A stretch of DNA of 64,000 bases from Salegentibacter sp. 24. GTDB taxonomy: Bacteria; Bacteroidota; Bacteroidia; Flavobacteriales; Flavobacteriaceae. The stretch covers positions 186,001 to 250,000 of the forward strand of contig NZ_SNWE01000002.1 in assembly GCF_004362395.1 (NCBI RefSeq). Reading direction: 5' to 3'. Made by a program: the position numbers and the translations under genes. Every line of letters begins with the position of its first letter. Within the stretch, counting starts at the first letter, position 1. Below the pieces are notes generated by a model. That model worked only from the letters and a program-made list of their open reading frames with translations. It did no database searches and was not told where the DNA came from. Shown piece by piece: positions 20,593 to 34,924 of this stretch.

Positions 20593-21789
20593 ATGAAAAT
20601 CTTATTTTTAATCCAGTCTAATAAAATTAATAAAGCTGGGCTAACCTCGTTGTGGTGTAGAATAACCTACAATAAGAGAAGGAAACAGTTCTCTACAGGA
20701 ACTTATATTAAACCTGGGTATTGGGATAAAGAAAAACAGAAAGTCATGGATGAAGCTGAAAATTCCAAAACAGTAAATTCTCAAATAAGCCTGATTAAGC
20801 AAAAACTTGGTCAGGCTTTTTTAATGCTTCAAATTCAAGAAGAACCGTTTGATGTAGAAGATGTGTACAAAATCTATAGTGGTGAGAACGTGAAGAAGGA
20901 GATGGGCGTTATGGCTGTTTATGAAGAGCATAATGCCTATTATAAAAAATTGATAGGAAAAGATATTAAAGAAGTGTCTTGGCAGAAATTTGAAAATACC
21001 AAAGGTCACCTCAAAAAGTTCATTCAGTGGAAGTTCAAGAAGAGGGAAGTAAAGCTCAACAGCTTGAAATTTCAGTTTATAAAGGACTTTGAATACTATC
21101 TGAGAACTGAGGAGAATATGCAGCAGAGTACCATCAATAAGACCTTACAGAGGTTCAAGAAGATGATCAATTTTGCTGTAGCACATGAATATCTTGATAG
21201 GAATCCATTCCTAATGCATAAGCCTAAACCAGTAAAAAAAGAGATTGTGTATCTTTCTAAGGATGAGCTTTCCCATCTACAAAAAAAATATTTAGGGAAT
21301 AAGCGGTTGGAGGAGGTGAGGGATTGTTTTGTTTTCTGCTGTTACACGGGATTGGCATTTAAAGAAATGAGTGCTCTTAGAAAGGATCATATTGTAAAAG
21401 GGAGAGATGGAAAAAATTGGATAAGGGTTGAAAGGCAGAAAACTGGTAAAACTATTTCAGTTCCTCTTCTACCAAAGGCGCAAGAAATTCTTAATAAATA
21501 CAAGAATGAGTTGGTTGATAAGAAAGTATTACCTACTAAAACCAATGCGCATTTTAATGCCTACCTAAAGGAAATAGCCGACCTGTGCGAGCTTAAGATA
21601 AACCTGACTCATCACATTGCCAGAAAAACCTTTGCTACTACTGTGTTGCTTTTAAATGATGTTCCTATGGAAGTGGTGAGTAAGCTTTTGGGTCATTCCA
21701 GAATAGGGATTACCCAAGCTCATTATGGGCAGATTTTGGAAGAAAAAGTACAAAGTGAAATGGAGAAATTAAAAAATAGATTAAAATAG
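20593..21789 (+). CDS. int: Tyrosine recombinase (site-specific integrase, Bacteroidota CTn type)
   Basis: 398 residues with an arm-binding N-terminus (RRKQFSTGTYIKPGYWD), a SAM-like core-binding domain (about 100-205) and the catalytic domain. Visible catalytic residues are H-x-x-R in THHIARKTFATTV, the GH of LLGHSRIGITQ, and the Tyr of AHYGQI. The first catalytic Arg position reads GLAFKEM, lacking Arg, as in IntDOT-like recombinases. It should catalyse insertion and excision at tRNA-Asp. The ATG at 20593 starts the family-typical N-terminus. Confidence 0.93.
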   Translation: MKILFLIQSNKINKAGLTSLWCRITYNKRRKQFSTGTYIKPGYWDKEKQKVMDEAENSKTVNSQISLIKQKLGQAFLMLQIQEEPFDVEDVYKIYSGENVKKEMGVMAVYEEHNAYYKKLIGKDIKEVSWQKFENTKGHLKKFIQWKFKKREVKLNSLKFQFIKDFEYYLRTEENMQQSTINKTLQRFKKMINFAVAHEYLDRNPFLMHKPKPVKKEIVYLSKDELSHLQKKYLGNKRLEEVRDCFVFCCYTGLAFKEMSALRKDHIVKGRDGKNWIRVERQKTGKTISVPLLPKAQEILNKYKNELVDKKVLPTKTNAHFNAYLKEIADLCELKINLTHHIARKTFATTVLLLNDVPMEVVSKLLGHSRIGITQAHYGQILEEKVQSEMEKLKNRLK

Positions 21790-23464: not shown

Positions 23465-23494
23465 TATACCCCTTACAGTATTGTAGGGGGTATT
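23465..23494. terminator. Bidirectional terminator between convergent genes
   Basis: ATACCCC (from 23466) pairs with GGGGTAT (to 23492). The stem overlaps the stop codon of the leftward E2-like gene and has T runs on one side and A-rich sequence on the other. Confidence 0.7.
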
Positions 23495-24177
23495 TCTTTA
23501 GCTCTTTTATTGAAAATCTTTAAATCTTCTTTGAGTCTTTCTTTGCCAAGTGGAAGGAGTTTATAAATAATTTTCCTGCAACACTTTTTATATTTCCGAT
23601 TACCACAAATAGGACAAATATGATAGGAAGGAAAATCATGATTCCCTAAGGCTGCTTCCAAGATTCTTTTAATATGTAAAGGATCAACTAAAGAAAATGA
23701 TTCTCGATAATATTGAATTATTCCTTGATCAAAATGGGCATACTCACCATTCGCATACTCTCCGCTAAGCTTTTTATAGTGGTAATTGGCAAAGAACGGA
23801 TATATCACATCCGAATAGAATTTTTTTAGCACAATACCTCTATTCTTCATCATGATTAAATTATGAGGAATGGACAAGCAGCATTCGCCTTTTGCAGAAA
23901 TATGGTTATCCCAGTGGCGAAAAATTTTTTGACTTTTTTCTATTACTATAGGTATGGTGTAAGGATAATATTTCTTTGAACAGGAAATGGTGATCTGATA
24001 GCTGTCAAGAAATTCTCCTGCTACTGTTATTATGTTAACAAAACCCGTTAGTAAAACGGTGTCGGAAGACTCTCCTTCATTTATTTCGAAGGTATAATAC
24101 AAATCAAGGAAATCTTTAAGATCCTTTTCGAGTTCTATATTATTAAAAGTCAAAATATGGCTTATTTTGGGCGGCAA
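23473..24177 (-). CDS. E2-like (ubiquitin-conjugating fold) protein with C-terminal Cys cluster
   Basis: 234 residues. The central part reads like a divergent E2: the YYPYTIPIVIE segment (about 70-80), a His (92), then KGECCLSIP (97-104), where the second Cys (100) takes the place of the catalytic Cys in the G-x-x-C-L motif. The C-terminal CPICGNRKYKKCC (188-200) resembles a SEC-C zinc motif. E2-like proteins without an E1 occur in short type II CBASS, where they modify the nucleotide cyclase. Here the partner upstream is a class III cyclase, and the genes overlap by 35 bp. No E1, JAB or ubiquitin-like gene is nearby. The fold assignment rests on motif reading only. Confidence 0.65.
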   Translation of the reverse strand: MPPKISHILTFNNIELEKDLKDFLDLYYTFEINEGESSDTVLLTGFVNIITVAGEFLDSYQITISCSKKYYPYTIPIVIEKSQKIFRHWDNHISAKGECCLSIPHNLIMMKNRGIVLKKFYSDVIYPFFANYHYKKLSGEYANGEYAHFDQGIIQYYRESFSLVDPLHIKRILEAALGNHDFPSYHICPICGNRKYKKCCRKIIYKLLPLGKERLKEDLKIFNKRAKEIPPTIL

Positions 24178-25126
24178 TAGGTTTTAAATCTTTCAAATCC
24201 GGTTTAGATTCTTTTGCAAAATTAAGACTTAGCACAATTGCTCCATATCTGTCTTGCACAGCGATCCCTTTTTTGACCAGGTATCTTTCCCAGTTGAAGT
24301 CGAAGTGGTTGTACACCCTGCCATCTTCATAGTCCCATATAGGATTCTTTTTTTGAATAAAATAATCTTCTCCTTGGATTTGATTTACAATATTTTGTCC
24401 TACAACAATGCCATTACTTGATGCCTTTGCTTGCATCTTTGGAGCTAGGCTTGTATGTAAGCTACAAGTTGTAATCTCTCCTGTATTACCTATTCCAGAA
24501 TATATCCATCTCACCTGATTATTGTGACCTAAATCTAAGCCTCCACGTGTATAAATCTCCGTAATACTGTTTTCTTCAAAATATTCTCGTAAATCGTTTT
24601 TAACAAAGTAAGAAATCATTGCAAAAGCTTTCAAAGCGTCCTCTGTGGCAGTCTTTTTATCAATACTCTTACCTCCAAAATATACCATTAGACCATCCCC
24701 CTGAATTCTTTGAACATATCCTCCACAATAATTAACTGCAAATATTGAAGCCTTTACTATGCCTTCAGTTATTAATGATACGGTAGCTTTGGTAAATCTA
24801 TTGAACAACCGGGTGCTTTCCTTAAGATCAATGAAACCAGAAATTATCCAATGATCTTCTGATTCACCCGTTTCTTTCAAATACTGAAAATCTGGATGAT
24901 TCCCTAAGCGAGGTACGTTAGTTATTTCTTGGTCGCTGAATCCTTTCCTAAGAAGAATTGTCTCATTTAGCTGCTCCAGACCAGGAAATTGATTTCTTAG
25001 ATTTTGTATGTGGGATAAATCAAATTGCGATTCATCAATTTGACCTCCATACATCCTTTGTTGGCTTTTAGGATCATTATGAATAGCTTTTTTAATTACA
25101 TCGAGGTAAGGGTTAAAAATGTTCAT
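24143..25126 (-). CDS. Class III nucleotide cyclase, probable PycC-type (Pycsar)
   Basis: 327 residues. The cyclase core has both metal-binding aspartates: GFIDLKEST (Asp100) and RIQGDGLMVYFGG (Asp144). The Asn/Arg positions that stabilise the transition state in classical adenylyl cyclases (N-x-x-x-R) are not apparent at GEITTCSLHTSLAPKMQAK. No membrane or receiver domain is fused. The N-terminal 90 residues are unassigned. Its gene lies 2 bp after a DUF5706-like three-TM effector gene, the hallmark pairing of Pycsar phage defence, where the cyclase makes cCMP or cUMP on infection. The nucleotide made here cannot be read from sequence. Confidence 0.82.
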   Translation of the reverse strand: MNIFNPYLDVIKKAIHNDPKSQQRMYGGQIDESQFDLSHIQNLRNQFPGLEQLNETILLRKGFSDQEITNVPRLGNHPDFQYLKETGESEDHWIISGFIDLKESTRLFNRFTKATVSLITEGIVKASIFAVNYCGGYVQRIQGDGLMVYFGGKSIDKKTATEDALKAFAMISYFVKNDLREYFEENSITEIYTRGGLDLGHNNQVRWIYSGIGNTGEITTCSLHTSLAPKMQAKASSNGIVVGQNIVNQIQGEDYFIQKKNPIWDYEDGRVYNHFDFNWERYLVKKGIAVQDRYGAIVLSLNFAKESKPDLKDLKPIAAQNKPYFDF

Positions 25127-25128
25127 AT

Positions 25129-25647
25129 TTAAAGGTTAAAGGTTAAAAAAATTATTAATGGGATTAAAAGAAAGAATTGAACAACAAGGGAATAACCAAC
25201 TATATTCAGCTTTTTAAATTTCTGAGTTAAACCCTGTGACAGGATATGTACTTGGGACCTAAGATCCTTCATATCTTGCTTGGGATTACAGTTTTTAGAT
25301 GCACTGGAAAATTCCTTAAAAGTTTTGGAACTCACGCTTCCAAAGTAGTAGAGGGACTCAGGCTTTGTTGAAAAAAACGGTCTACTCGTTACAGCTAAAA
25401 GAATTAAATTAACAATACCGGCTAGGAGACAAAGCCCTGTCGTAAAAGCGGCTATTGGCCAAATACTTTCAAGGATATCGGGATGAGAAACCATAGCTAT
25501 TATACCTCCGCTTAAAAAGGTATTTATTGCAATGTAAACTGCAGACTTATTATTTACGCTATCATAATAGTGGTCAAGTCTTTGGATGGTTAGAACCAGG
25601 CGATCTCTCTCTCTATTATCTTCAAATTTTTCGTGCATTTTTTCCAA
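25129..25647 (-). CDS. Pycsar-type transmembrane effector (DUF5706/PycTM-like)
   Basis: 172 residues. An N-terminal amphipathic stretch with DRLVLTIQRLDHYYDSVNNKSAVYIAIN precedes TM1 (about 36-55) and TM2 (62-87). A cytoplasmic linker with SRPFFSTKPESLYYFGSVSSKTFKEF follows, then C-terminal TM3 (149-170). D-x-Y-x-x-x-N-x-K-A-type spacing before TM1 and the linker fit the PycTM/DUF5706 family, which damages the membrane when it binds a cyclic pyrimidine nucleotide. It is the first gene of the leftward three-gene operon. Confidence 0.8.
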   Translation of the reverse strand: MEKMHEKFEDNRERDRLVLTIQRLDHYYDSVNNKSAVYIAINTFLSGGIIAMVSHPDILESIWPIAAFTTGLCLLAGIVNLILLAVTSRPFFSTKPESLYYFGSVSSKTFKEFSSASKNCNPKQDMKDLRSQVHILSQGLTQKFKKLNIVGYSLVVQFFLLIPLIIFLTFNL

Positions 25648-25703
25648 TGATGAATTTTTTCGTTATGTTTGAGTCCCTACACTAATAATGACCCCTCAGT
25701 ATT

Positions 25704-25763
25704 ATATGTTTAATGTGTGACAGGAGGAGGAATTAAATTTTGCTTGTCACACATTTTACATAT
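25704..25763. promoter_or_regulatory. Long dyad operator between the Pycsar-like operon and the sigma gene
   Basis: Left arm 25704-25722 (ATATGTTTAATGTGTGACA) and right arm 25745-25763 are inverted repeats matching at 17 of 19 positions, separated by 22 bp. They lie in the divergent spacer, 57 bp before the effector start and 17 bp before the likely sigma start at 25780. The site could control both transcripts. Confidence 0.7.
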
Positions 25764-25779
25764 AACATTAAGTAGTAGA

Positions 25780-26427
25780 GTGAAAATAGATATTGAATAC
25801 CAACTGTTGTTAATTGCCTGTAAGGAAGAAAATCCAAAAGATGCAGAGCAATCTTTATCTATTTTATATGAGGAGTTTCGTGAATTTGTTTATAATGTGG
25901 TAATTAAATTTCTCCATTCCCCTCTACATAAAGAAGAAATTGCGCAGAGTGTTACCAACGACGTTTTTTATTTTCTATACCAGAAACCGGAATGGAGTTT
26001 CGACCCTGAAAGGCATACGAAATCTGAAGGTGCATTCAAAGCTTATCTGGCTACAGTAGCACGAAATAAATTATATGAGACTCTTAGAACCCATGTTAAT
26101 TGGGAAAAAGAGGATGTAATTTATGATGATGATCACACCTTATTTGAAGAAGAATTAAGTGAAAATGAATTTGAGAATATCGACAACCTTGTATCTGAAA
26201 ATAATCAAATTATTGATGAAGTGCTAAACACTTTTTCTCCACGAGATAAGGAAATTATTCTTACTTATTTTTTATATTATGAGAAGGGGAAGAATCTTCC
26301 TGGCAGAGTTTTAGATGAGATGGAGGCCATTCATAAAACGACCCGGCCAAATATTAGGCAAATTGTGAGTCGAGCTAAGAAGAAAATTAAAGAATTGGCA
26401 ATTGCCAAGAACCTAAAAATTACCTAA
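25780..26427 (+). CDS. Sigma-70 family (ECF-like) RNA polymerase sigma factor
   Basis: 215 residues from GTG 25780. The frame stays open back to 25717, but that would place the dyad inside the gene. Region 2 lies in about residues 20-100 (ILYEEFREFVYNVVIKFL ... FKAYLATVARNKLYETLR), and region 4 in 145-210 (FSPRDKEIILTYFLYY ... TRPNIRQIVSRAKKKIKEL). It is unusually placed on a mobile island and heads an operon with a small protein and an ImmA-type peptidase. Its target promoters are unknown; the dyad or other island promoters are candidates. Confidence 0.8.
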   Translation: MKIDIEYQLLLIACKEENPKDAEQSLSILYEEFREFVYNVVIKFLHSPLHKEEIAQSVTNDVFYFLYQKPEWSFDPERHTKSEGAFKAYLATVARNKLYETLRTHVNWEKEDVIYDDDHTLFEEELSENEFENIDNLVSENNQIIDEVLNTFSPRDKEIILTYFLYYEKGKNLPGRVLDEMEAIHKTTRPNIRQIVSRAKKKIKELAIAKNLKIT

Positions 26428-26739
26428 ATGGTGAAGGAGAAGAATAGATTTGCAGAATTGCTTCGTAAGCATGGTTATGCAATGCCTACATCTGAAGAAG
26501 AGGTCGGGAATTTTGAAAATAAATTTGGTTCAGAATATGAATCTCCAAAAAAATGGAGTAGTGTTAAAGAAATTTTGAACAATAAAGGTGGGTTTATTAA
26601 AAACCTCTCCCATAGACCCTTCAATTCTGATGATGGTTCAGCAATTAGTTTATCTATGGCTGCAAGAGAAGGAAAGGAAATTTCAGATGTCATTAAAAAC
26701 AAAATGAAGGAAGATCGGAAGAATGCAAAAAAGAAGTGA
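26428..26739 (+). CDS. Small unknown protein, possible sigma-factor partner
   Basis: 103 residues, basic, no membrane segment, no family recognised (FAELLRKHGYAMPTSEEEVGNF ... ISDVIKNKMKEDRKNAKKK). The ATG abuts the sigma stop codon directly, and the 3' end overlaps the peptidase gene by 17 bp, so all three are translationally coupled. By analogy with ImmR/ImmA pairs it could be an anti-sigma or antitoxin-like substrate of the peptidase; this is inference only. The N-terminal motif also resembles short proteins found next to XRE/ImmA genes. Confidence 0.6.
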   Translation: MVKEKNRFAELLRKHGYAMPTSEEEVGNFENKFGSEYESPKKWSSVKEILNNKGGFIKNLSHRPFNSDDGSAISLSMAAREGKEISDVIKNKMKEDRKNAKKK

Positions 26740-27535
26740 TTTCCTTTCCCATTATGATAATGAATATTTGAACAATCTAGCTAGTGGAATAGCAGATTAT
26801 TATTTTCCACATGGACGCATAGAACCCGAAATTATTTCTATCAAAAATAATATTACCTTCTCATACGGGGAATATGGAGCCTGTTTTGATGGTTTAATTG
26901 AATGTGAGGAACAATCATTCCATATATTTATAAACACAGATCGTTTAAAACATGGCTATTCAGATAGAGCACGCTTTACTTTCGCCCACGAATTAGGACA
27001 TTATTTTATTGATGACCATAGAAATGCTCTGCTTGAGGGGAGATCCCCCAGCCATTCCTCTTTTACAGGGTTTGTACGTAAAAATCGTGCAGAAAGGCAA
27101 GCTGATTATTTTGCTTCCTGTCTGCTTCTGCCAGAAACCAGATTTAAAGCTTTTTGTTTCAGAAAAAAATTTGACTTTAAAATAATCCGGGATCTTTCTA
27201 AATTTTTTGGAGTGAGTATTTCTGCTACGGCTCTAAGATTTTGTGCGATAGGGAATCATCCTATTATGGTCGTTTATTCCCATAATAATAATATTAAGTG
27301 GTACTGGTATTCCGAAGATTTTCCATTTAAAGCACTTAAATATGGAAAAGATAGACTTCCTGAAGATACGGTTGCTGGAGAATATTTTGAACTTCAACGT
27401 CAGCCTAAAACAGTACAACCTGTTTTTGCTATGGACTGGTTTAATATATGGAATAGCAGTCAGGCCGAATTACCATTTTTTGAGCAGTGTATTTTTAATG
27501 GAAAACACTGTTTAAGTATTATTTGGGAAGAGTAA
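26723..27535 (+). CDS. ImmA/IrrE-family metallopeptidase
   Basis: 270 residues. FTFAHELGHYFIDDH (about residues 88-102) is the HExxH zinc motif, and RAERQADYFASCLLLP supplies the third ligand region, both typical of ImmA/IrrE (DUF955). Such peptidases cleave a repressor partner after DNA damage or phage signals and so derepress a mobile element or defence genes. The C-terminal 110 residues, including WYWYSEDFPF, are an additional domain I cannot name. It is the last gene of the sigma operon. Confidence 0.88.
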   Translation: MQKRSDFLSHYDNEYLNNLASGIADYYFPHGRIEPEIISIKNNITFSYGEYGACFDGLIECEEQSFHIFINTDRLKHGYSDRARFTFAHELGHYFIDDHRNALLEGRSPSHSSFTGFVRKNRAERQADYFASCLLLPETRFKAFCFRKKFDFKIIRDLSKFFGVSISATALRFCAIGNHPIMVVYSHNNNIKWYWYSEDFPFKALKYGKDRLPEDTVAGEYFELQRQPKTVQPVFAMDWFNIWNSSQAELPFFEQCIFNGKHCLSIIWEE

Positions 27536-27619: not shown

Positions 27620-27778
27620 ATGAAGAGAACATTTCAACCATCCAAAAGAAAGAGAAAAAACAAGCACGGTTTTAGAGAACGGATGTCTAGTGTCAATGGA
27701 AGAAAAGTATTGTCTAGACGCAGATCCAAGGGTAGAAAAAAATTATCAGTTTCGTCAGAGAATAGGCATAAACATTAA
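27620..27778 (+). CDS. rpmH: Ribosomal protein L34 encoded on the island
   Basis: 52 residues. [20 protein letters not shown], the [20 protein letters not shown] block and the end NRHKH are an unmistakable bacterial L34. The length matches Bacteroidota L34 (52-53 residues). Compared with the flavobacterial form as I remember it, several Ala positions are Ser, and the C-terminal Pro and Lys are Asn and His, so this is a diverged paralogue rather than a recent copy. L34 lies at the peptidyl-transferase side of the 50S subunit. It has its own -7 box, stands between the peptidase gene and the restriction cluster, and is in no ribosomal operon. Confidence 0.93.
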
Positions 27779-27854: not shown

Positions 27855-27882
27855 AAACTTGACAACTTGACTTGTCAACTTA
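27855..27882. repeat. Left boundary repeat of the restriction cassette
   Basis: AAAACTTGAC (27855-27864) and CTTGTCAACTT (27871-27881) recur in inverse orientation at 37896-37925. Internally TTGACAA and TTGTCAA pair, so on the minus strand it also looks like a terminator of the DUF4391 transcript. Confidence 0.6.
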
Positions 27883-28551
27883 TTTCATCGTTTTCAGAGT
27901 ACTACTTAATAGAGCCTTAAGCTCCTTTTTCTTTTTATTCAATTCCTGATTCAGTTCTACCTTATCCCTAAATTGAGTTTTAGAGCTTTTAATTTTCCTT
28001 TGTAGCTGGTCAATTGCAGTTTTCAAAGTTGCTTGTTTCTCCTGGTTTTCTACTAAGTCTGCCAGGGATGAAGTTTTATTCTCGCCTGCTAATTGGTAGC
28101 AAAATCCTTCATACACATTATCAAGGCTTTTCTTTAAGGGTAGTGAATATCTATGCATTTCCTCTTCCTTCATCCATTCTGAATTGAAGGTCCAATCAAT
28201 TACAGAAATATTCTCATTAACTGGATGAGGGTGCTTGGTAGAGGTGGAAAAATAGTAATCCTCATCAGAGTTCACCAGAAATATTATAGGGTAGGGAATA
28301 GATTTATCTATAATATCCAAGAGAGCCTGTACCTTTTCATTCTGTTTTAATTCAACATAAAATATCTGGATCTCCTTAACTTCTTTGGCAGGTAGGTTGG
28401 TGGTGGTCTCAGATAGTTTGTAAGACCAGGTGATCCTTTTAATAAGATCTGTAAACAGTTGTTTTTGTTTACTATTTGTAAAGGAGTCAAAAGCATTTTT
28501 AGGAACCACGCGGTTCACTTTTACTTTGTCTGGGAGATCAAAAAATTCCAT
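27880..28551 (-). CDS. DUF4391 domain protein of restriction cluster
   Basis: 223 residues. A mixed alpha/beta N-terminal part (KEIQIFYVELKQNEKVQALLDIIDKSIPYPIIFLVN) is followed by a C-terminal coiled coil (LADLVENQEKQATLKTAIDQLQRKI ... LNQELNKKKKELKALL). This matches DUF4391, a family that usually accompanies type III-like methylase, helicase and nuclease genes. Its molecular role is not known to me. The start codon directly follows the helicase stop, and it is the last gene of a four-gene leftward operon. Confidence 0.82.
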   Translation of the reverse strand: MEFFDLPDKVKVNRVVPKNAFDSFTNSKQKQLFTDLIKRITWSYKLSETTTNLPAKEVKEIQIFYVELKQNEKVQALLDIIDKSIPYPIIFLVNSDEDYYFSTSTKHPHPVNENISVIDWTFNSEWMKEEEMHRYSLPLKKSLDNVYEGFCYQLAGENKTSSLADLVENQEKQATLKTAIDQLQRKIKSSKTQFRDKVELNQELNKKKKELKALLSSTLKTMK

Positions 28552-31500
28552 CTATTTCACGATTAAAAAAGAGATTAATTTAAAGTCCTCTATACCTTTT
28601 AATTTATCCTGTAAGGCTGTTGTGCCACCTGCCTGAAATAAACTCATTACATCTTTCTCTTCCTCTCTTTGTAAGATGGTACTGATGCTTTGTTTGAGTA
28701 GCTGAGAATATTTATTCATTTCCTGGTAATCATCGGTCTCATCACTCAATGTTTTGCAGAGATCTCCCAGGGGAGAACTTACCCCCTTACAAGCCATACG
28801 CATTGAATCTAATATCTTCTTTGGCTCTACGTGATTATAGACTACTTCTCCATTATTCCGCATATAAACCAGGTAGTAGGGGTGCAGCCTGTTCAGCTTA
28901 TTTATGTTGACGCTGCTATTGATATTCTTCAGGATGAAAATTACACCGGGGGAAAGGTGTTCATTGGATTTCACAACTGTGTGTAATCCTTCTGGAATAT
29001 TCTTCAGCTCTCCGTTGGCTTTTATAAGATTAGAGAGGTCAATTCTGAAGTCATTTAGTCCAAGGTCTGTAATACTCACTCCTTCTTTGAGATCTTCCAG
29101 GTCAAGAACTTCATCTCTTAAACTTTGTAGCTGGATCTTACGGTACTCAAGATCCTTTTCTTTTGTATTAAGGATATTATCATCCCCTGTACTGGTCATA
29201 TTACTAATGAGCATCTTACTTTCTACCCTTTGCTTCAAGTTAATGTAAGAATCAAGAGTAATATCTGGCCAGAAATTTACCATTGTAATACTCTCATTCT
29301 TTGAACCAATACGATCTATTCTACCAAACCTCTGAATAATACGCACAGGATTCCAATGGATGTCATAATTAACGAGGTAATCACAATCCTGTAAATTTTG
29401 TCCTTCAGAAATACAGTCTGTAGCAATAAGGATTTCTATAGAGTCTGTAATCTTCGGGTAAAGCTGATTCTTATCTTTTGAAATAGGTGAGAAGCAAGTA
29501 AGAATTGCATTAATATCCGGAGGTACTTGTTTAGAAGTACTTAATTTTCTGGAGCCTGTTATAAGTGCACTATGAATTCCATATTTCTTCTTGAAGTGCT
29601 CTTTAATGTACTCGTACAGATAATTTGCAGTGTCTGCGAAAGCTGTAAATACAATAGCTTTTTTGTTGCCGGGATTTAAAGGATTTTCAATTTTATCTTC
29701 CAGAAGTGATATAAGCTTCTGAAGCTTCACATCGTCCTCCCCTGCAATATCCACAATTTTACTCCATAGGTCATTTAGGATGAAAAGATCTTCCCCTAAA
29801 TCCTCTTCCCATTTAGTAGTATCCATATCAGAAATATGAACCTTTATTTTCTTGCCTATTACCTGTTCTTCATCACCCCAATCTGATTCCCAATCAAAAT
29901 TTTCATCATCTAGCCGTGACAGAATCCCTTCGTAATCTCCACCATCCCCTTTTTTAATAGTTTTCATTACATTTTCTATCTGGGAAATAACATTCTCAAG
30001 GGTAAGGCGGAAAGAATCTACAGAACTTTCCAGCCGTTTCAGAAGGTTGATACGCATTAAAGTCCTCAAACTATTATCCCTGTCCATTTGGGATAATCTT
30101 CCTGATCCAGACCTTACTTCTTTATCATATAGATCTGCATATGACTGAAGCTTGCTTGGCAGGATATAATTTAAAGGAGTATATATGGATAAATTTAGAA
30201 GCGTGAGTTTTTCAGCAATCTCCTCATAGGTGATCCCATTATTATTTGTAAGAGGGGACTGGATAGAGAGAGGTTTATTCCTTTTTGGGAACTTTCCAAT
30301 ATCTGTCGTATCGTAATAGGTGGTAATATGTTTTCTGGATCTTGCTATGGTCAAGGAATCCAGGATTTCAAAAAAGTCGAAATCAAGCATATCCAGAAGT
30401 TTCTCAGTGGTTCTTTCCTCTGTTTCAAACTTACTCCAGGCATTAAATGCTTGTTGAGCTCTTCTAAAAATTAGATCAATACTGGAAGTGGTGTCAAGTC
30501 GATTGTCAATATTTGCTGCTTCCCCTTCATAGGCTAAAGCTAATTGATTCTTTAGATCATTGAACCGATTATTCACCGGGGTAGCAGAGAGCATCATAAC
30601 TTTCGTTTCAATTCCTTCCTTGATGATCTTTCTTAGAAGTTTTTGGTACCTATTCTCCCTATCTGCATTGGGATTATTATTTCTGAAATTATGGGATTCA
30701 TCTATAACTACTAAGCCATAGTTGCCCCAGTTCACATTTTCCAGTTGCCTTCCATTACTCACTCCTCTTTCCCTGGAAAGATCTGTATGGAAAAGAACGT
30801 CATACCTTAATCTGTCTTTAGCAAGTATATTATTCTTGTCATTATACCTAAAGGTGTTCCAGTTTGCTTCTAATTTTTTAGGGCAAAGAACCAGAACATC
30901 CTTGTTTCGCATCTCATAGTATTTTATAACTCCAAGTGCAGAAAAGGTTTTTCCTAAACCTACACTGTCTGCAAGAATACAGCCCTTGTATTTCTCCAGT
31001 TTATTAATGCTTCCAATAACAGCATCCTTCTGGAAATTATAAAGTCGTTCCCAAATAACAGTTTCTTTAAAGCCTATCTGATCATCCGGTAGGGTTTCTA
31101 ACGAGATATCATCCAGGAAGTCATTAAAGATGTTATAAAGGGTAATAAAGTAAATGAACTCAGGACTGTTTTCTTTGTAGGCGCTCTCAAAATAATCCTG
31201 AACCTTATTTGTTACGTCGGTAAGATCATCATTGTTTTCCCAGATCTGGTTGAACCACTCTAGATATGCTTTACTGTCGGGGAATTTTGTTTTTTGTATG
31301 AGGGTAGGAAATCCCTTTTTACTGGTAATCCCGAGATCTGAAGTTGTAAAACTATTTACATTGGTATAAGAATAAGCTTCACCATTTCCATTCTTTAAGT
31401 GGATCATTCCGTTAAGCTGCTGATTGCTATGCTTATTGGTTTTAAATGTAACCTTCTCCTTTACCCATTTTGAACATTCCTTGGCAATGGCTCGTTGATT

Positions 31501-31785
31501 AAGCTGGTTCATCAACCTAAGCTCAAATTCACCACCACATAATTCAGATTCTTTTACAATATGTGGAATGTAAAATTGCCTGCTGTGCTTTTTAAATTCT
31601 TCTTCTATAAAAGTAGGAGAGGTAAAGATAAATCGCAGATCTTCAATTTTGCCTAACTCTTTTTTTAAAGCTTCAAACGCATAGATAGAAAAGGAAGCGG
31701 CTGCAATACTAAGTTTGCTGCCTTTCCTAATACTCTGCTTTAGATCGTCACCTAAATGAGTATTTACATTATCTATTAGCTTCAT
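28552..31785 (-). CDS. SNF2-family helicase with N-terminal PLD-like domain
   Basis: 1077 residues. Residues 1 to about 170 resemble a PLDc-like domain (SIAAASFSIYAFEALKKEL ... SYTNVNSFTTSDLG) but lack a clear H-x-K motif. The SF2 motor follows: Walker A LADSVGLGKTFSALG (about 272), DESH in VVIDESHNFRNN, SATPVNNR, and the C-terminal RecA lobe with QRFGRIDRIGS. Such proteins occur with type III-like Mod/Res genes and may translocate on DNA or load the nuclease. It overlaps the res gene by 17 bp. Confidence 0.88.
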   Translation of the reverse strand: MKLIDNVNTHLGDDLKQSIRKGSKLSIAAASFSIYAFEALKKELGKIEDLRFIFTSPTFIEEEFKKHSRQFYIPHIVKESELCGGEFELRLMNQLNQRAIAKECSKWVKEKVTFKTNKHSNQQLNGMIHLKNGNGEAYSYTNVNSFTTSDLGITSKKGFPTLIQKTKFPDSKAYLEWFNQIWENNDDLTDVTNKVQDYFESAYKENSPEFIYFITLYNIFNDFLDDISLETLPDDQIGFKETVIWERLYNFQKDAVIGSINKLEKYKGCILADSVGLGKTFSALGVIKYYEMRNKDVLVLCPKKLEANWNTFRYNDKNNILAKDRLRYDVLFHTDLSRERGVSNGRQLENVNWGNYGLVVIDESHNFRNNNPNADRENRYQKLLRKIIKEGIETKVMMLSATPVNNRFNDLKNQLALAYEGEAANIDNRLDTTSSIDLIFRRAQQAFNAWSKFETEERTTEKLLDMLDFDFFEILDSLTIARSRKHITTYYDTTDIGKFPKRNKPLSIQSPLTNNNGITYEEIAEKLTLLNLSIYTPLNYILPSKLQSYADLYDKEVRSGSGRLSQMDRDNSLRTLMRINLLKRLESSVDSFRLTLENVISQIENVMKTIKKGDGGDYEGILSRLDDENFDWESDWGDEEQVIGKKIKVHISDMDTTKWEEDLGEDLFILNDLWSKIVDIAGEDDVKLQKLISLLEDKIENPLNPGNKKAIVFTAFADTANYLYEYIKEHFKKKYGIHSALITGSRKLSTSKQVPPDINAILTCFSPISKDKNQLYPKITDSIEILIATDCISEGQNLQDCDYLVNYDIHWNPVRIIQRFGRIDRIGSKNESITMVNFWPDITLDSYINLKQRVESKMLISNMTSTGDDNILNTKEKDLEYRKIQLQSLRDEVLDLEDLKEGVSITDLGLNDFRIDLSNLIKANGELKNIPEGLHTVVKSNEHLSPGVIFILKNINSSVNINKLNRLHPYYLVYMRNNGEVVYNHVEPKKILDSMRMACKGVSSPLGDLCKTLSDETDDYQEMNKYSQLLKQSISTILQREEEKDVMSLFQAGGTTALQDKLKGIEDFKLISFLIVK

Positions 31786-34700
31786 TCATTTGTTTTAGTT
31801 GCACAATATCCATCAGCTTTTCATAGCTGCTTACTTTTTCAAACCGCACCTGGTTACCACTTATTTCTTTAAAATGTTCTGTGGCACAGTGAATCTTCAG
31901 TTTTTCAATTTCCCTCAAATCCATATCTGAGTCTGAACCTTTTGTTTCAGCTACAAAATAAACTTGCTTCACTTTGTCCTTGTCAAATACTATAGCCCAA
32001 TCCGGACTGTAGTTTGCAACCGGTGTAGAAACAGTAAAGCTTTTAGGTAACTTGGCATAAACTACTACTTCAGTACTGGTCTCTAAGGCTTTGGCGAAAT
32101 TGGACTCAATTTTTGAATCTGAAGTTAAGAAGTCATAGATATGCTTTTTAAGCAGATCAGAATCCCTTAGAGTTGATTTATCATTCGTAAAGACCGTCTT
32201 AGCATCGTGCCTTTCTTCTGTTTTATGGTAGATGATATTATTGATGATTAGGCTTGCCTTCACCTCATTTATTAGCTTACTACACTTTGAAATAAACTCC
32301 TCGGGGTTTTTACGGATCAGCAGGAATTTCTCCTCTTTAATAGCTTTTAAAATTGCAACAATGGTTCTTCTGGTAAGGTTGGTGTGAACTTCAATCTCTC
32401 CAACTATATCGTATAAGGTATTGGTGTAAAGGTCATTCTTAATTTTCAGGTATTCCCGATTGGATTCCCTTACCAAATCACCTTCTTCCATTTGTTTTTT
32501 GGTACCATCCTGTAGTTCCCCTGTTTTGACCTCATAAATCCTGTCACCAATATTTAGCTGGGCATTTATTTTGATCTTACTATCCTCAATAAGTAATGCG
32601 GTGTCAAATTTCACCTCATAAATGGTCTTCAGATTTATTTTCTCCCATAGTTCCTGAAATTCCTTCTTATGGAAATTTTTATTGGTGTTTAGAACTACAG
32701 TCTGCCGTTCATCTTCAGGTTTAAATTCTTCCCCGGTGTAAACAGATTTTAGAAGTTTGGTAACTGCTTCCTGATATGGTTTCAATTCATAGGGTAAAGG
32801 CACTTCATTTTTCTCAATTAGTTCTCTTCCAACATCAGTGATCTTATCGTCAATATCAATTATACCATTAGCAAAAAGAGTTTTATTCAGGTAATTTGAT
32901 TCTTTTTCAGTTATCCGATGCTCCTCATCTTTTTCATTTTTAACCAACTTTCCAATGAAGTAGTTTATATCGGCTTTTTGTGGTCTGTCCTTTAAAGTTT
33001 CAGCAATCTCCTTCTGTAGCCCTTTAGCAAAGGCTTCATAACTTTCAGACGCGATAACAGTAAGCTTGTTGATCTCGTGGACCTGATCTCCTACTGTGTC
33101 AAAGTCAAGACGTGTACCATTCTTATTTACACATAAGCGCATACCTCTTCCTACTTCTTGCCTTCGCCTGGTAAGACTACCTGTTTCAGGATTTTTTAGA
33201 GCACATATCTGGAAGACGTTTGGATTATCCCAACCTTCTTTTAAAGCAGAGTGAGAGAATATGAAACGTGTAGGCTCCTTAAAGCTTAACAAGCGTTCCT
33301 TATCCTTCATTATTAGATCATAGGCACTAATATCTTCTGAATCTTCTGAACCTCTCTTTACCGTTGGATCTGTTAATCTATTCTTCTTATCTATTGAGAA
33401 ATAACCTTGATGCACTTCTTCAGCATCATCTCGTTTTAGGTACTGATCATAAGTTGGCATATAACCTTTATGCACATTCCCTGGGTCTGTCTCTTTTAGA
33501 TAATCATTATAATCTTCCTGGAAAATATCAAGGAACTCGCTGCGCACCTTATTGTATTCTTCTTCAAAAATTCGAGCATATTCTCCCAATGCTTCCTCCC
33601 CATCTACATCATAAACACGATACTTTTCAACAGAATCTATAAAAAATAGAGACAAGACCTTTATTCCTTTTTGGTATAGCTGCTTTTCTTTTTGTAGATG
33701 GGAAAGGATACATTCTCGTATCTGGACTCTTCGGAAAGCATTTTCATCCTTATCATTCAAAATATCTCCAGGATATATGTCCTGCCCGGCAACAACAATT
33801 TTATTGAGATAACCATTAATTTCTGTAATGGTTTGGTTCTTATAAGCAGGCATATTACCTGAATTCTCATACAGGTTAAAACCTTCTTCAACCTTCTCCC
33901 TTTTCTTAATGATAGAACCTGAGGTTGTTCTTTTTTCGTATTCAATAATAGCATAAGGAGGTTTAGACGTGCTTAGGCTAATACCCTCCAGGTACAAATA
34001 TCCAGTAGTTCCTGTAGATCCTTTAAGGTTAATACCTTTGACCTGGATCTTTTTTACCAGGCGCCTATTGTACGCGTCTAAAGCATCTAAGCGATATATT
34101 TTATTATAATCTTCTTTATGGGTTGCAGAATAACGGATAGTAAATAAAGGATTAAAATCCTGCATACTTTCCAGTGTTTTTTTGCCATCTACAGATTGAG
34201 GTTCATCTATAATAAGAATCGGATTGGTCTGAGAGATAATTTCAATAGGTTTCCTGGTGCCGAATTGATCTAATTCCTGATAAATTCTCCTGGCATCTTT
34301 TCCCCTGGCATTAAAAGCCTGTGTGTTGATGATCATTACACTAATTCTGCTATCTGAAGCAAAATTTTCAATATCCTGTGGTTTGCCGGAATTGTAAATA
34401 AAAGGATTGATCTTATGACCATACAATTCCTGAAAATGATCCTGAGTAACTTCAAAGGATTTATAAACCCCTTCCCGAATTGCTATACTTGGAACAATGA
34501 TTATAAATTTACTCCAACCATATTTTTTCTGAAGTTCATACATTGTACGGATATAAGTATAGGTTTTACCAGTACCCGTTTCCATTTCAATGGTCAAATT
34601 ATAACCAAGTTTGACTCCCTTAGGGCGTTCTATCTTCTGACTCTCGTGCAGGTCATTTTCTTTTTGTACCTGTTGGATATTCTTGAGAAGTTGACTTTCT

Positions 34701-34924
34701 GAAACCTGAATAGAACTATTCCTGTAACCAATATCCTCCAGAACCTCATTTTCAAAGGCAGATGTTTGGGTAATACCCGCAGCAACCTGCTTTGCTTTTT
34801 TTAGAAGATCCTTACTCCGTTCCAGGGTGAAGCGATTCGTTTTTAAAGCTTGACCTTTGAAGCAATTAACAACAGCTTCAACTGCCTGTACCTGAAAATC
34901 CTGTTCTTTAAATTGTAATTTCAT
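31769..34924 (-). CDS. res: Type III restriction enzyme Res subunit (DEAD helicase plus nuclease)
   Basis: 1051 residues. TIEMETGTGKTYTYIRTMYELQ (Walker A, about 113) and LIIDEPQSVDGKKT (motif II DEPQ) are typical of type III Res. The C-terminal RecA lobe includes RRRQEVGRGMRLCVN. Near the end PDWAIVFDKDKVKQVYFVAETKG gives the PD-(D/E)xK nuclease residues. It cleaves DNA after ATP-driven communication between unmodified sites in complex with Mod. It starts one base after the mod gene. Confidence 0.93.
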   Translation of the reverse strand: MKLQFKEQDFQVQAVEAVVNCFKGQALKTNRFTLERSKDLLKKAKQVAAGITQTSAFENEVLEDIGYRNSSIQVSESQLLKNIQQVQKENDLHESQKIERPKGVKLGYNLTIEMETGTGKTYTYIRTMYELQKKYGWSKFIIIVPSIAIREGVYKSFEVTQDHFQELYGHKINPFIYNSGKPQDIENFASDSRISVMIINTQAFNARGKDARRIYQELDQFGTRKPIEIISQTNPILIIDEPQSVDGKKTLESMQDFNPLFTIRYSATHKEDYNKIYRLDALDAYNRRLVKKIQVKGINLKGSTGTTGYLYLEGISLSTSKPPYAIIEYEKRTTSGSIIKKREKVEEGFNLYENSGNMPAYKNQTITEINGYLNKIVVAGQDIYPGDILNDKDENAFRRVQIRECILSHLQKEKQLYQKGIKVLSLFFIDSVEKYRVYDVDGEEALGEYARIFEEEYNKVRSEFLDIFQEDYNDYLKETDPGNVHKGYMPTYDQYLKRDDAEEVHQGYFSIDKKNRLTDPTVKRGSEDSEDISAYDLIMKDKERLLSFKEPTRFIFSHSALKEGWDNPNVFQICALKNPETGSLTRRRQEVGRGMRLCVNKNGTRLDFDTVGDQVHEINKLTVIASESYEAFAKGLQKEIAETLKDRPQKADINYFIGKLVKNEKDEEHRITEKESNYLNKTLFANGIIDIDDKITDVGRELIEKNEVPLPYELKPYQEAVTKLLKSVYTGEEFKPEDERQTVVLNTNKNFHKKEFQELWEKINLKTIYEVKFDTALLIEDSKIKINAQLNIGDRIYEVKTGELQDGTKKQMEEGDLVRESNREYLKIKNDLYTNTLYDIVGEIEVHTNLTRRTIVAILKAIKEEKFLLIRKNPEEFISKCSKLINEVKASLIINNIIYHKTEERHDAKTVFTNDKSTLRDSDLLKKHIYDFLTSDSKIESNFAKALETSTEVVVYAKLPKSFTVSTPVANYSPDWAIVFDKDKVKQVYFVAETKGSDSDMDLREIEKLKIHCATEHFKEISGNQVRFEKVSSYEKLMDIVQLKQMNEANR

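Follow-up and report, generated by a model that had tools for sequence, protein, structure and literature searches.

A recurrent trio of sigma factor, putative anti-sigma factor and CapP peptidase facing immune operons: a candidate proteolytic switch

The trio and the Pycsar operon beside it

We analysed a stretch of 64,000 nucleotides from Salegentibacter sp. 24 (contig NZ_SNWE01000002.1, positions 186,001 to 250,000; hereafter the window, with positions counted from its first letter). In it, three coupled genes encode a sigma factor of the extracytoplasmic function (ECF) type, a small partner protein and the M78 peptidase CapP. They lie head to head with an operon of the Pycsar immune system, and two copies of one sequence element lie between the two operons. 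The features are as follows (class A is defined below).

25780–26427, + strand: ECF-like sigma factor (regions 2 and 4), class A; TIGR02937 and Pfam Sigma70_r2
26428–26739, + strand: partner protein of 103 aa, a putative anti-sigma factor whose C-terminal tail is conserved; weak match to the PADLOC capH model (E 2.2e-4)
26723–27535, + strand: CapP, M78 (ImmA/IrrE) zinc peptidase of 270 aa with HELGH and E124; PADLOC capP and 7t5t
25745–25765, + strand: sigma-side twin element, TGTCACACATT(TTA)CATATAA, 35 nt before the sigma start
25702–25722, − strand: immune-side twin element, TGTCACACATT(AAA)CATATAA, before the Pycsar operon
25129–25647, − strand: Pycsar/2TM membrane effector; PADLOC 2TM effector E 3.3e-50, PycTM E 4.7e-33
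24143–25126, − strand: Pycsar nucleotide cyclase PycC; PADLOC PycC E 3.4e-129
23473–24177, − strand: E2-like protein, third gene of the Pycsar operon; PADLOC E1-E2 E 3.5e-74

An earlier reading made from the letters alone (the sequence-only reading) had described the three genes as coupled and as suggesting one unit. Its coordinates, the 0-bp sigma/partner junction and the 17-bp partner/peptidase overlap were all reproduced by an open reading frame (ORF) check of the window. The sigma start codon at 25780 is GTG. The longest sigma ORF begins at another GTG, 25717, which lies upstream of the same-strand element; the N-terminus read from 25780 (MKIDIEYQLL) has the counterpart MDIETQLL in the relative L161. 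The sigma factor matched NCBIfam TIGR02937 (E 3.5e-18, residues 26–205) and Pfam Sigma70_r2 (E 4.1e-6), and it has sigma regions 2 and 4 only, as ECF sigma factors do.

The peptidase matched Pfam M78 (E 3e-13) and, over residues 20–270, the PADLOC capP model (E 1.2e-59), as a full-length CapP would. A profile of its relatives (A1) matched the solved CapP 7t5t (E 4.6e-34). The residues of the catalytic HExxH motif and its glutamate (H89, E90, H93 and E124) were unchanged across 21 aligned proteins, and the C-terminal domain is present. On sequence grounds, the window peptidase is the protease of the known CapH–CapP immune controller.

No Pfam family and no NCBIfam helix–turn–helix (HTH) family was matched by the window partner. 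It thus lacks the N-terminal HTH DNA-binding domain that characterizes CapH. Folded alone, the partner gave a mean predicted local distance difference test (pLDDT) score of 66.8 and a predicted template modelling (pTM) score of 0.25. A read-through fusion of sigma factor and partner gave a pLDDT of 81 and a pTM of 0.59; the two folds allow no inference from their comparison because the underlying alignments differ. In Foldseek, the fusion model ranked the sigmaE/RseA, AlgU/MucA, CnrH/CnrY and SigW/RsiW structures high, among sigma factors bound to RNA polymerase, and its residues 1–112 and 139–214 matched ECF regions 2 and 4 of solved structures.

Recurrence of the trio and matching of its parts

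We screened 299 genomes of the family (E ≤ 1e-3) and 392 genomes of the phylum (E ≤ 1e-20) with the PADLOC capP model, which matched in 70 and 44 of them, respectively. All 19 loci taken at E ≤ 1e-34 from the family genomes held the trio, as did 22 of the 25 further loci from the phylum (18 by script, 4 by eye). Together this gave 41 trios in 44 loci, a subset, as more matches of like score existed in the phylum screen; the other three had an HTH gene (L040), lacked the partner (L041) or were ambiguous (L053). A scan of named genomes, from which the best 80 of at least 138 relatives were used, also contributed to the locus set. After de-duplication by identical CapP C-termini, 65 of 76 distinct full-length CapP loci were trios (62 by script, 3 by eye), counted with a full-length filter that was built from trio CapPs (A1) and so favours trios. 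Among the 11 non-trios, five carried a CapH-type HTH gene in place of the partner (L083, L086, L100, L122 and L167), two lay at a contig edge (L065 and L109) and four were of other kinds (L082, L084, L101 and L168).

The sequence-only reading had named co-occurrence of the three families as a check on its idea, and this check came out in its favour. Using sigma profiles built from trio sigmas, we found a match within 2 kb upstream on the same strand in 61 of the 69 CapP loci that had 1.5 kb or more of upstream sequence. Among loci of other M78 peptidases, the count was 1 of 41. That single positive (L069) is itself a split CapP: in this Flavobacterium metagenome-assembled genome, the CapP gene runs in two frames (L069:6617-7725), with the sigma gene kept upstream. 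Spacing between sigma and partner genes fell within −30 to +20 bp in 54 of the 65 trios, and the partner overlapped CapP at the first possible start in 55. Trios were also found in records titled Phycisphaeraceae, Spartobacteria, Fodinibius and Burkholderiales, as well as on two plasmids: a similar trio faces a similar Pycsar operon on the Chryseobacterium plasmid pA2BH1, and a trio on a Pontibacter plasmid lies opposite multiubiquitin and ThiF genes. The trio is well supported as a unit.

The partners fall into two classes, A (30 trios, including the window) and B (35 trios). On each of the two trees, that of sigma and that of CapP, partner class switches a single time. Class-specific sigma profiles, each of which includes its own members, placed 65 of 65 sigmas as partner class predicts; two partners (L093 and L096) that a text pattern had called A were reassigned to B by eye ahead of tree building. 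TIGR02937, an independent model, recognized 28 of the 30 sigmas in class A at E ≤ 0.01, and 22 of the 35 in class B. The sigma profiles of the two classes are related (hhalign E 1.1e-8), and no relationship between the two partner profiles was detectable by hhalign.

Among class A partners, 23 of 31 matched the PADLOC capH model, with a best E of 6.9e-19, as did 9 of 35 in class B, so the library already files many class A partners as capH despite the HTH-less partner of the window. A profile of five HTH partners found the HTH protein 7t5u (E 1.4e-24), which we take to be CapH as the neighbour entry of 7t5t; this profile gave no alignment with the class A partner profile in hhalign. Sequence searches of the PDB with both partner profiles returned no convincing relative, the best E values (0.017 and 0.0012) belonging to unrelated proteins. 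Class A partners, including that of the window, end in a conserved pattern, AAR.G..I...I..KM, and class B partners in F/Y-R/N-x-L (by eye). The class A tail may be the target of CapP, in which case the cut in the window partner would be expected in or before AAREGKEISDVIKNKM. By eye, the class B tail resembled that of CapH (FR.L..L..ED); we rejected this likeness as proof of homology, the hhalign probability being only 5 over 14 columns. The probabilities for the class A tail were 0.3 with CapH and 0.6 with class B.

Partners were then sought independently of CapP. The two partner profiles matched 12 and 17 of the 299 genomes. The full-length matches (8 and 11) were all trios that had built the profiles, and no full-length stand-alone partner was found among these genomes. 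The sequence-only reading would have been in difficulty had the small protein proved widespread apart from sigma or peptidase genes; nothing of the kind emerged. The remaining 10 matches comprised six fusions, one weak match (L214, a short partner adjoining a class B sigma, with CapP absent) and three chance-like matches. The fusions are proteins of ~245–250 aa in which the N-terminal ~70 residues of the partner are followed by an unrelated domain of ~180 aa, and each directly follows a sigma gene of the matching class. A search with the ~180-aa domain matched in 9 of the 299 genomes: the six fusions, two HsdS subunits and a seventh fusion (L221), which adjoins a class A sigma and whose N-terminus was judged by eye. 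All seven fusion genomes lie outside the 70 with a capP match. In L209 and L210, which were outside the training set, class B twin elements were kept on both sides; L211, likewise held out, kept the one on the sigma side. The partner N-terminus thus goes with the sigma factor and the C-terminus with the input device, as would be expected of an anti-sigma domain whose tail can be removed. Class matching and this domain swap lead us to regard the partner as a putative anti-sigma factor.

The C-terminal domain of the fusions was taken by eye for Panacea/SocA, a name that we dropped: Pfam E values were only 0.022 (L196) and 0.18 (L209), and the name was absent from the results for the four other proteins scanned. 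The two HsdS-like proteins that carry this domain (named by eye) lie at L218:1-2076 and L223:169-2091. A further restriction gene stands beside CapP in one of the non-trio loci. There, a type I restriction specificity subunit HsdS (L101:1540-3974, Pfam E 1.4e-26) ends in MAARGKVEGMSDQAKQAIEDLF, which by eye is like the class A partner tail, and is directly followed by a CapP-like peptidase. From this arrangement, CapP may also control restriction.

Divergent elements and the operons they face

In the window, the element has the form TGTCACACATT-N3-CATATAA in both directions. As an inverted repeat, the pair scored 18.0, against a maximum of 14.2 in 25 dinucleotide shuffles. At up to two mismatches, the 4.15-Mb genome holds exactly two copies of the element, both at this locus, and none of a reversed control. 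A first scan of other loci for inverted repeats left most of them under their shuffles, class B above all, and a motif model was used instead.

Motif discovery, for which the input was the regions holding both sites, gave one motif per class. The class B motif, TGGCAAA..gAGCATATa, reads as a −35 element TGGCAA and a −10 element GAGCATA separated by 15 bp; in the class A motif, t.TcACG.TTTt.GTATAT, the −10 element is not clear. We then scored 27 class A and 35 class B loci with matrices at p ≤ 0.05 against dinucleotide shuffles, leaving aside three class A trios with no divergent gene in view. The sigma side was tested with the immune-side sites of other loci only. For class A loci, the own-class matrix was significant on the sigma side in 8 of 27 and on the immune side in 18 of 27; for class B loci, the corresponding counts were 13 of 35 and 18 of 35. 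With the matrix of the other class, the counts were 4 of 27 on either side for class A loci, and 1 of 35 (sigma side) and 2 of 35 (immune side) for class B loci. A less strict version of the same test, with single-base shuffles, gave 8 of 27 and 15 of 35 on the sigma side. When one locus was kept per group of relatives, the sigma side remained significant in 6 of 23 class A (binomial 7.5e-4) and 10 of 30 class B loci (binomial 1.2e-6).

The two sites of a locus were also compared directly, using back-to-back pairs, one per group of relatives, and 5000 permutations. Likeness within and between loci was 0.53 versus 0.44 in class A (n = 8) and 0.57 versus 0.45 in class B (n = 18), and none of the 5000 permutations reached the observed value in either class. 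In 17 of the 18 class B pairs, the 5′ ends lay 1–11 bp apart, within an allowed range of −5 to 60. Two sites that are alike within a locus are most simply explained by a single sigma factor, specific to the locus, that reads both. The twin elements are putative promoters of the neighbouring sigma factor.

The Pycsar operon of the window has both the PycC cyclase and the PycTM effector that define such systems, and the trio, head to head with it, is placed like a controller. An adjoining immune operon is also found with CapH–CapP pairs. The window cyclase belongs to a sequence cluster present at 6 of the 54 loci (among 65 trios) for which we surveyed the first divergent genes. The survey comprised two sets of 73 and 78 proteins; one of these (A10) excludes four proteins that were short or at an edge and includes two first genes that were entered manually. 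The commonest oligonucleotide-cyclase model of PADLOC matched 15 of 73 and 7 of 78 proteins. Pfam families in the two sets included ThiF (8 and 8), Multi_ubiq (4 and 7), patatin (4 and 2) and Cap15 (4 and 1). From these families, the same candidate switch faces Pycsar operons, operons of the cyclic oligonucleotide-based antiphage signalling system (CBASS) type and ubiquitin-like operons.

The E2-like third gene was present in all six Pycsar loci (the window, L060, L077, L080, L142 and L158), and its products cluster by sequence with E2-like neighbours in seven further loci. The counterpart in plasmid pA2BH1 carries a SEC-C annotation. An E2-like protein in a Pycsar operon was unexpected. A conserved protein of ~57 aa (MATNPPKDNSRKGAVRxRSQTYNPKT..RDxxTGRFMDVKTS..FKGVRKEK) is encoded between promoter and immune operon and is the first divergent ORF in nine loci (L161, L143, L163, L067, L149, L154, L155, L157 and L159). 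A family of ~414 aa faces four trios (L079, L147, L149 and L157); the one member scanned had no Pfam match, and the family is possibly an immune system of a kind not yet known.

A candidate proteolytic switch and its alternatives

The protease CapP of CapH–CapP pairs is activated by single-stranded DNA (ssDNA) and cleaves CapH, according to PMC13373217. If the CapP of the trio behaves in a similar way, it would cleave the partner and release the sigma factor. We propose, with a probability of roughly 0.68, that the trio is a proteolysis-triggered sigma switch, in which the partner would act as anti-sigma factor, CapP would cut its tail and the sigma factor would fire its own operon and the immune operon. 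In the resting cell, the N-terminal ~70 residues of the partner would bind the sigma factor and keep it off RNA polymerase. Once ssDNA activates CapP, as reported for the CapH–CapP pairs, the conserved C-terminal tail would be cut and the partner lost. The freed sigma factor would then transcribe from the two divergent copies of one promoter, giving more of the trio on one side and cyclase, membrane effector and E2-like protein on the other. The response should amplify itself by positive feedback, as the sigma operon is among the targets, and fresh partner from that operon would reset the switch when CapP falls silent.

The sequence-only reading had proposed one unit in which the peptidase releases a sigma factor, and this is supported in part. 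The comparative support is strong and comes from the recurrent trio, the matched classes, the twin elements and the N-terminus kept beside the sigma factor where CapP is missing. The computed part of our explanation consists of these results together with the identity of CapP and the likeness of sites within loci. What we infer is the action of the elements as sigma promoters, binding, inhibition, cleavage, the ssDNA trigger and the feedback.

Several results weigh against the proposed switch. The class A, class B and CapH tails show no detectable mutual homology (hhalign probabilities 0.3 to 5). The fusion model has a pTM of 0.59, its Foldseek E values exceed 1e-3 and its structure matches cover residues 1–216 only, which is the sigma part; it hence supports an ECF sigma factor and not a complex. 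At E ≤ 0.01, 15 of the 65 sigmas (2 of class A, 13 of class B) miss TIGR02937. Most loci had no significant sigma-side site (19 of 27 in class A, 22 of 35 in class B). The class B matrix matched class A loci at a rate slightly over chance, with 4 of 23 on each side (binomial 0.026). With the class A matrix, the two sites of the window fell short of significance (p 0.25 on the sigma side, 0.08 on the immune side); the evidence in the window is the twin itself. The −10 halves of class A sites were not alike within loci (1519 of 5000 permutations reached the observed likeness), which leaves the class A −10 element undefined. In the held-out fusion loci L194–L196 and L221, the class A matrix matched one of the four immune sides and none of the four sigma sides; the class B matrix instead gave matches in L194 and L195 (immune side) and in L221 (sigma side). 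L214 had neither class B site.

A plain ImmR/ImmA or CapH–CapP pair was rejected on account of the HTH-less partner and the conserved sigma factor. A variant of the latter, in which the partner is a diverged DNA-binding repressor cut by CapP and the sigma factor an accessory neighbour, seems to us unlikely. It draws on the capH matches among partners of both classes and on the CapH-type HTH gene that takes the place of the partner in 5 of 76 CapP loci. Against this stand the window partner, with neither an HTH domain nor any other family, and the class-matched sigma factor in 65 of the 76 loci. Where CapP is absent, moreover, the partner N-terminus remains with the sigma factor, and the shared elements are class-specific, with a class B layout like that of −35/−10 promoters.

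Alternatively, the partner may be an activator or chaperone of the sigma factor, so that CapP would remove it and shut the system off. We give this opposite sign of control little credence. In the known immune protease/sigma systems, the protein that is cut is an inhibitor (CalpT in PMC11417357, Csx30 in PMC10028731), and CapP turns immunity on in CapH–CapP (PMC13373217). In its favour, the anatomy of the locus would be identical and the sign of control is unreadable from sequence. ImmA/IrrE peptidases are common in toxin–antitoxin systems and mobile elements, and a recombinase-like ORF (named by eye) lies at 20593-21789 and relatives occur on plasmids, yet a toxin–antitoxin or mobile-element control unit riding in defence islands is very improbable, given that the twin elements face immune and sigma operons, are alike within loci and are class-specific beside cyclase, Pycsar and ubiquitin-like operons alike.

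The proposed switch resembles several described controllers in part. It shares with CapH–CapP the same protease family at full length, a place beside immune operons and a partner gene that overlaps CapP; it differs in the HTH-less partner, the added ECF-like sigma factor and the divergent elements resembling sigma promoters, and it would activate its target through a released sigma factor, whereas CapH–CapP works by derepression. In composition, the trio combines the CapP of that controller with another type of partner and with an ECF-like sigma factor. As in ImmR/ImmA and DdrO/IrrE (PprI), an M78 peptidase would remove a regulator encoded next door. In ImmR/ImmA, the peptidase cuts an HTH repressor without the involvement of a sigma factor, unlike the window, where the partner has no HTH family; DdrO/PprI is likewise reported to involve cleavage of an HTH repressor and no sigma factor.

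CalpL/CalpT/CalpS is also a three-part immune switch of protease, anti-sigma factor and ECF sigma factor, as described in PMC11417357. Its protease is a SAVED-Lon protein activated by cyclic tetra-adenylate (cA4) in type III CRISPR, whereas the window protease is an M78 CapP, several kinds of operon are the output and the trio has no CRISPR genes. In the type III-E CRISPR system Csx29/Csx30/CASP-sigma, a protease cuts a sigma inhibitor and matches to the CASP-sigma motif lie in its own defence locus (PMC10028731). The likeness would extend to protease, sigma inhibitor and a sigma factor with motifs in its own locus; the protease there is an RNA-activated TPR-CHAT protein bound to Cas7-11, unlike the M78 CapP of the window. 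By analogy, the trio would work like these two systems with an unrelated protease. CapK–CapS and CapW/BrxR are, according to PMC13373217, exchangeable DNA-damage controllers beside many immune operons, as the trio appears to be, but consist of kinase/STAS proteins or WYL repressors, with no sigma factor and no protease.

The question of how costly, often suicidal immune operons stay silent and then switch on is still open. All of the DNA-damage controllers named in PMC13373217 (CapH–CapP, CapW and CapK–CapS) act through repressors. If correct, our proposal would add positive control of immunity by a dedicated sigma factor, tell what most full-length CapP proteins in our sample act on and correct the capH label that PADLOC puts on many partners; the promoter motifs would help to find further immune regulons. 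More broadly, Bacteroidota and several other phyla may use dedicated immunity sigmas with matched anti-sigma domains, whose input end is exchangeable, and like back-to-back promoters that make immunity and its activator self-amplifying, whatever the downstream system (Pycsar, CBASS or ubiquitin-like); we lean towards this generalization by a modest degree. The sequence-only reading knew of no described example of the trio. This needs qualification, as the peptidase is the known CapP, the capH model matches many partners and immune switches of protease, anti-sigma and sigma factor are known. A literature search found no account of a sigma gene or of sigma control with CapP, the founding CapH–CapP paper (which we take to be Lau et al. 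2022) lying outside its reach.

Two other features adjoin the trio in the window. Just 3′ of CapP, a basic ORF of 52 aa (27620-27778, + strand) resembles ribosomal protein bL34. Beyond it, on the − strand at 27880-34924, genes for a DUF4391 protein, an HKD/SNF2 helicase and a type III restriction-like enzyme make up a further defence system.

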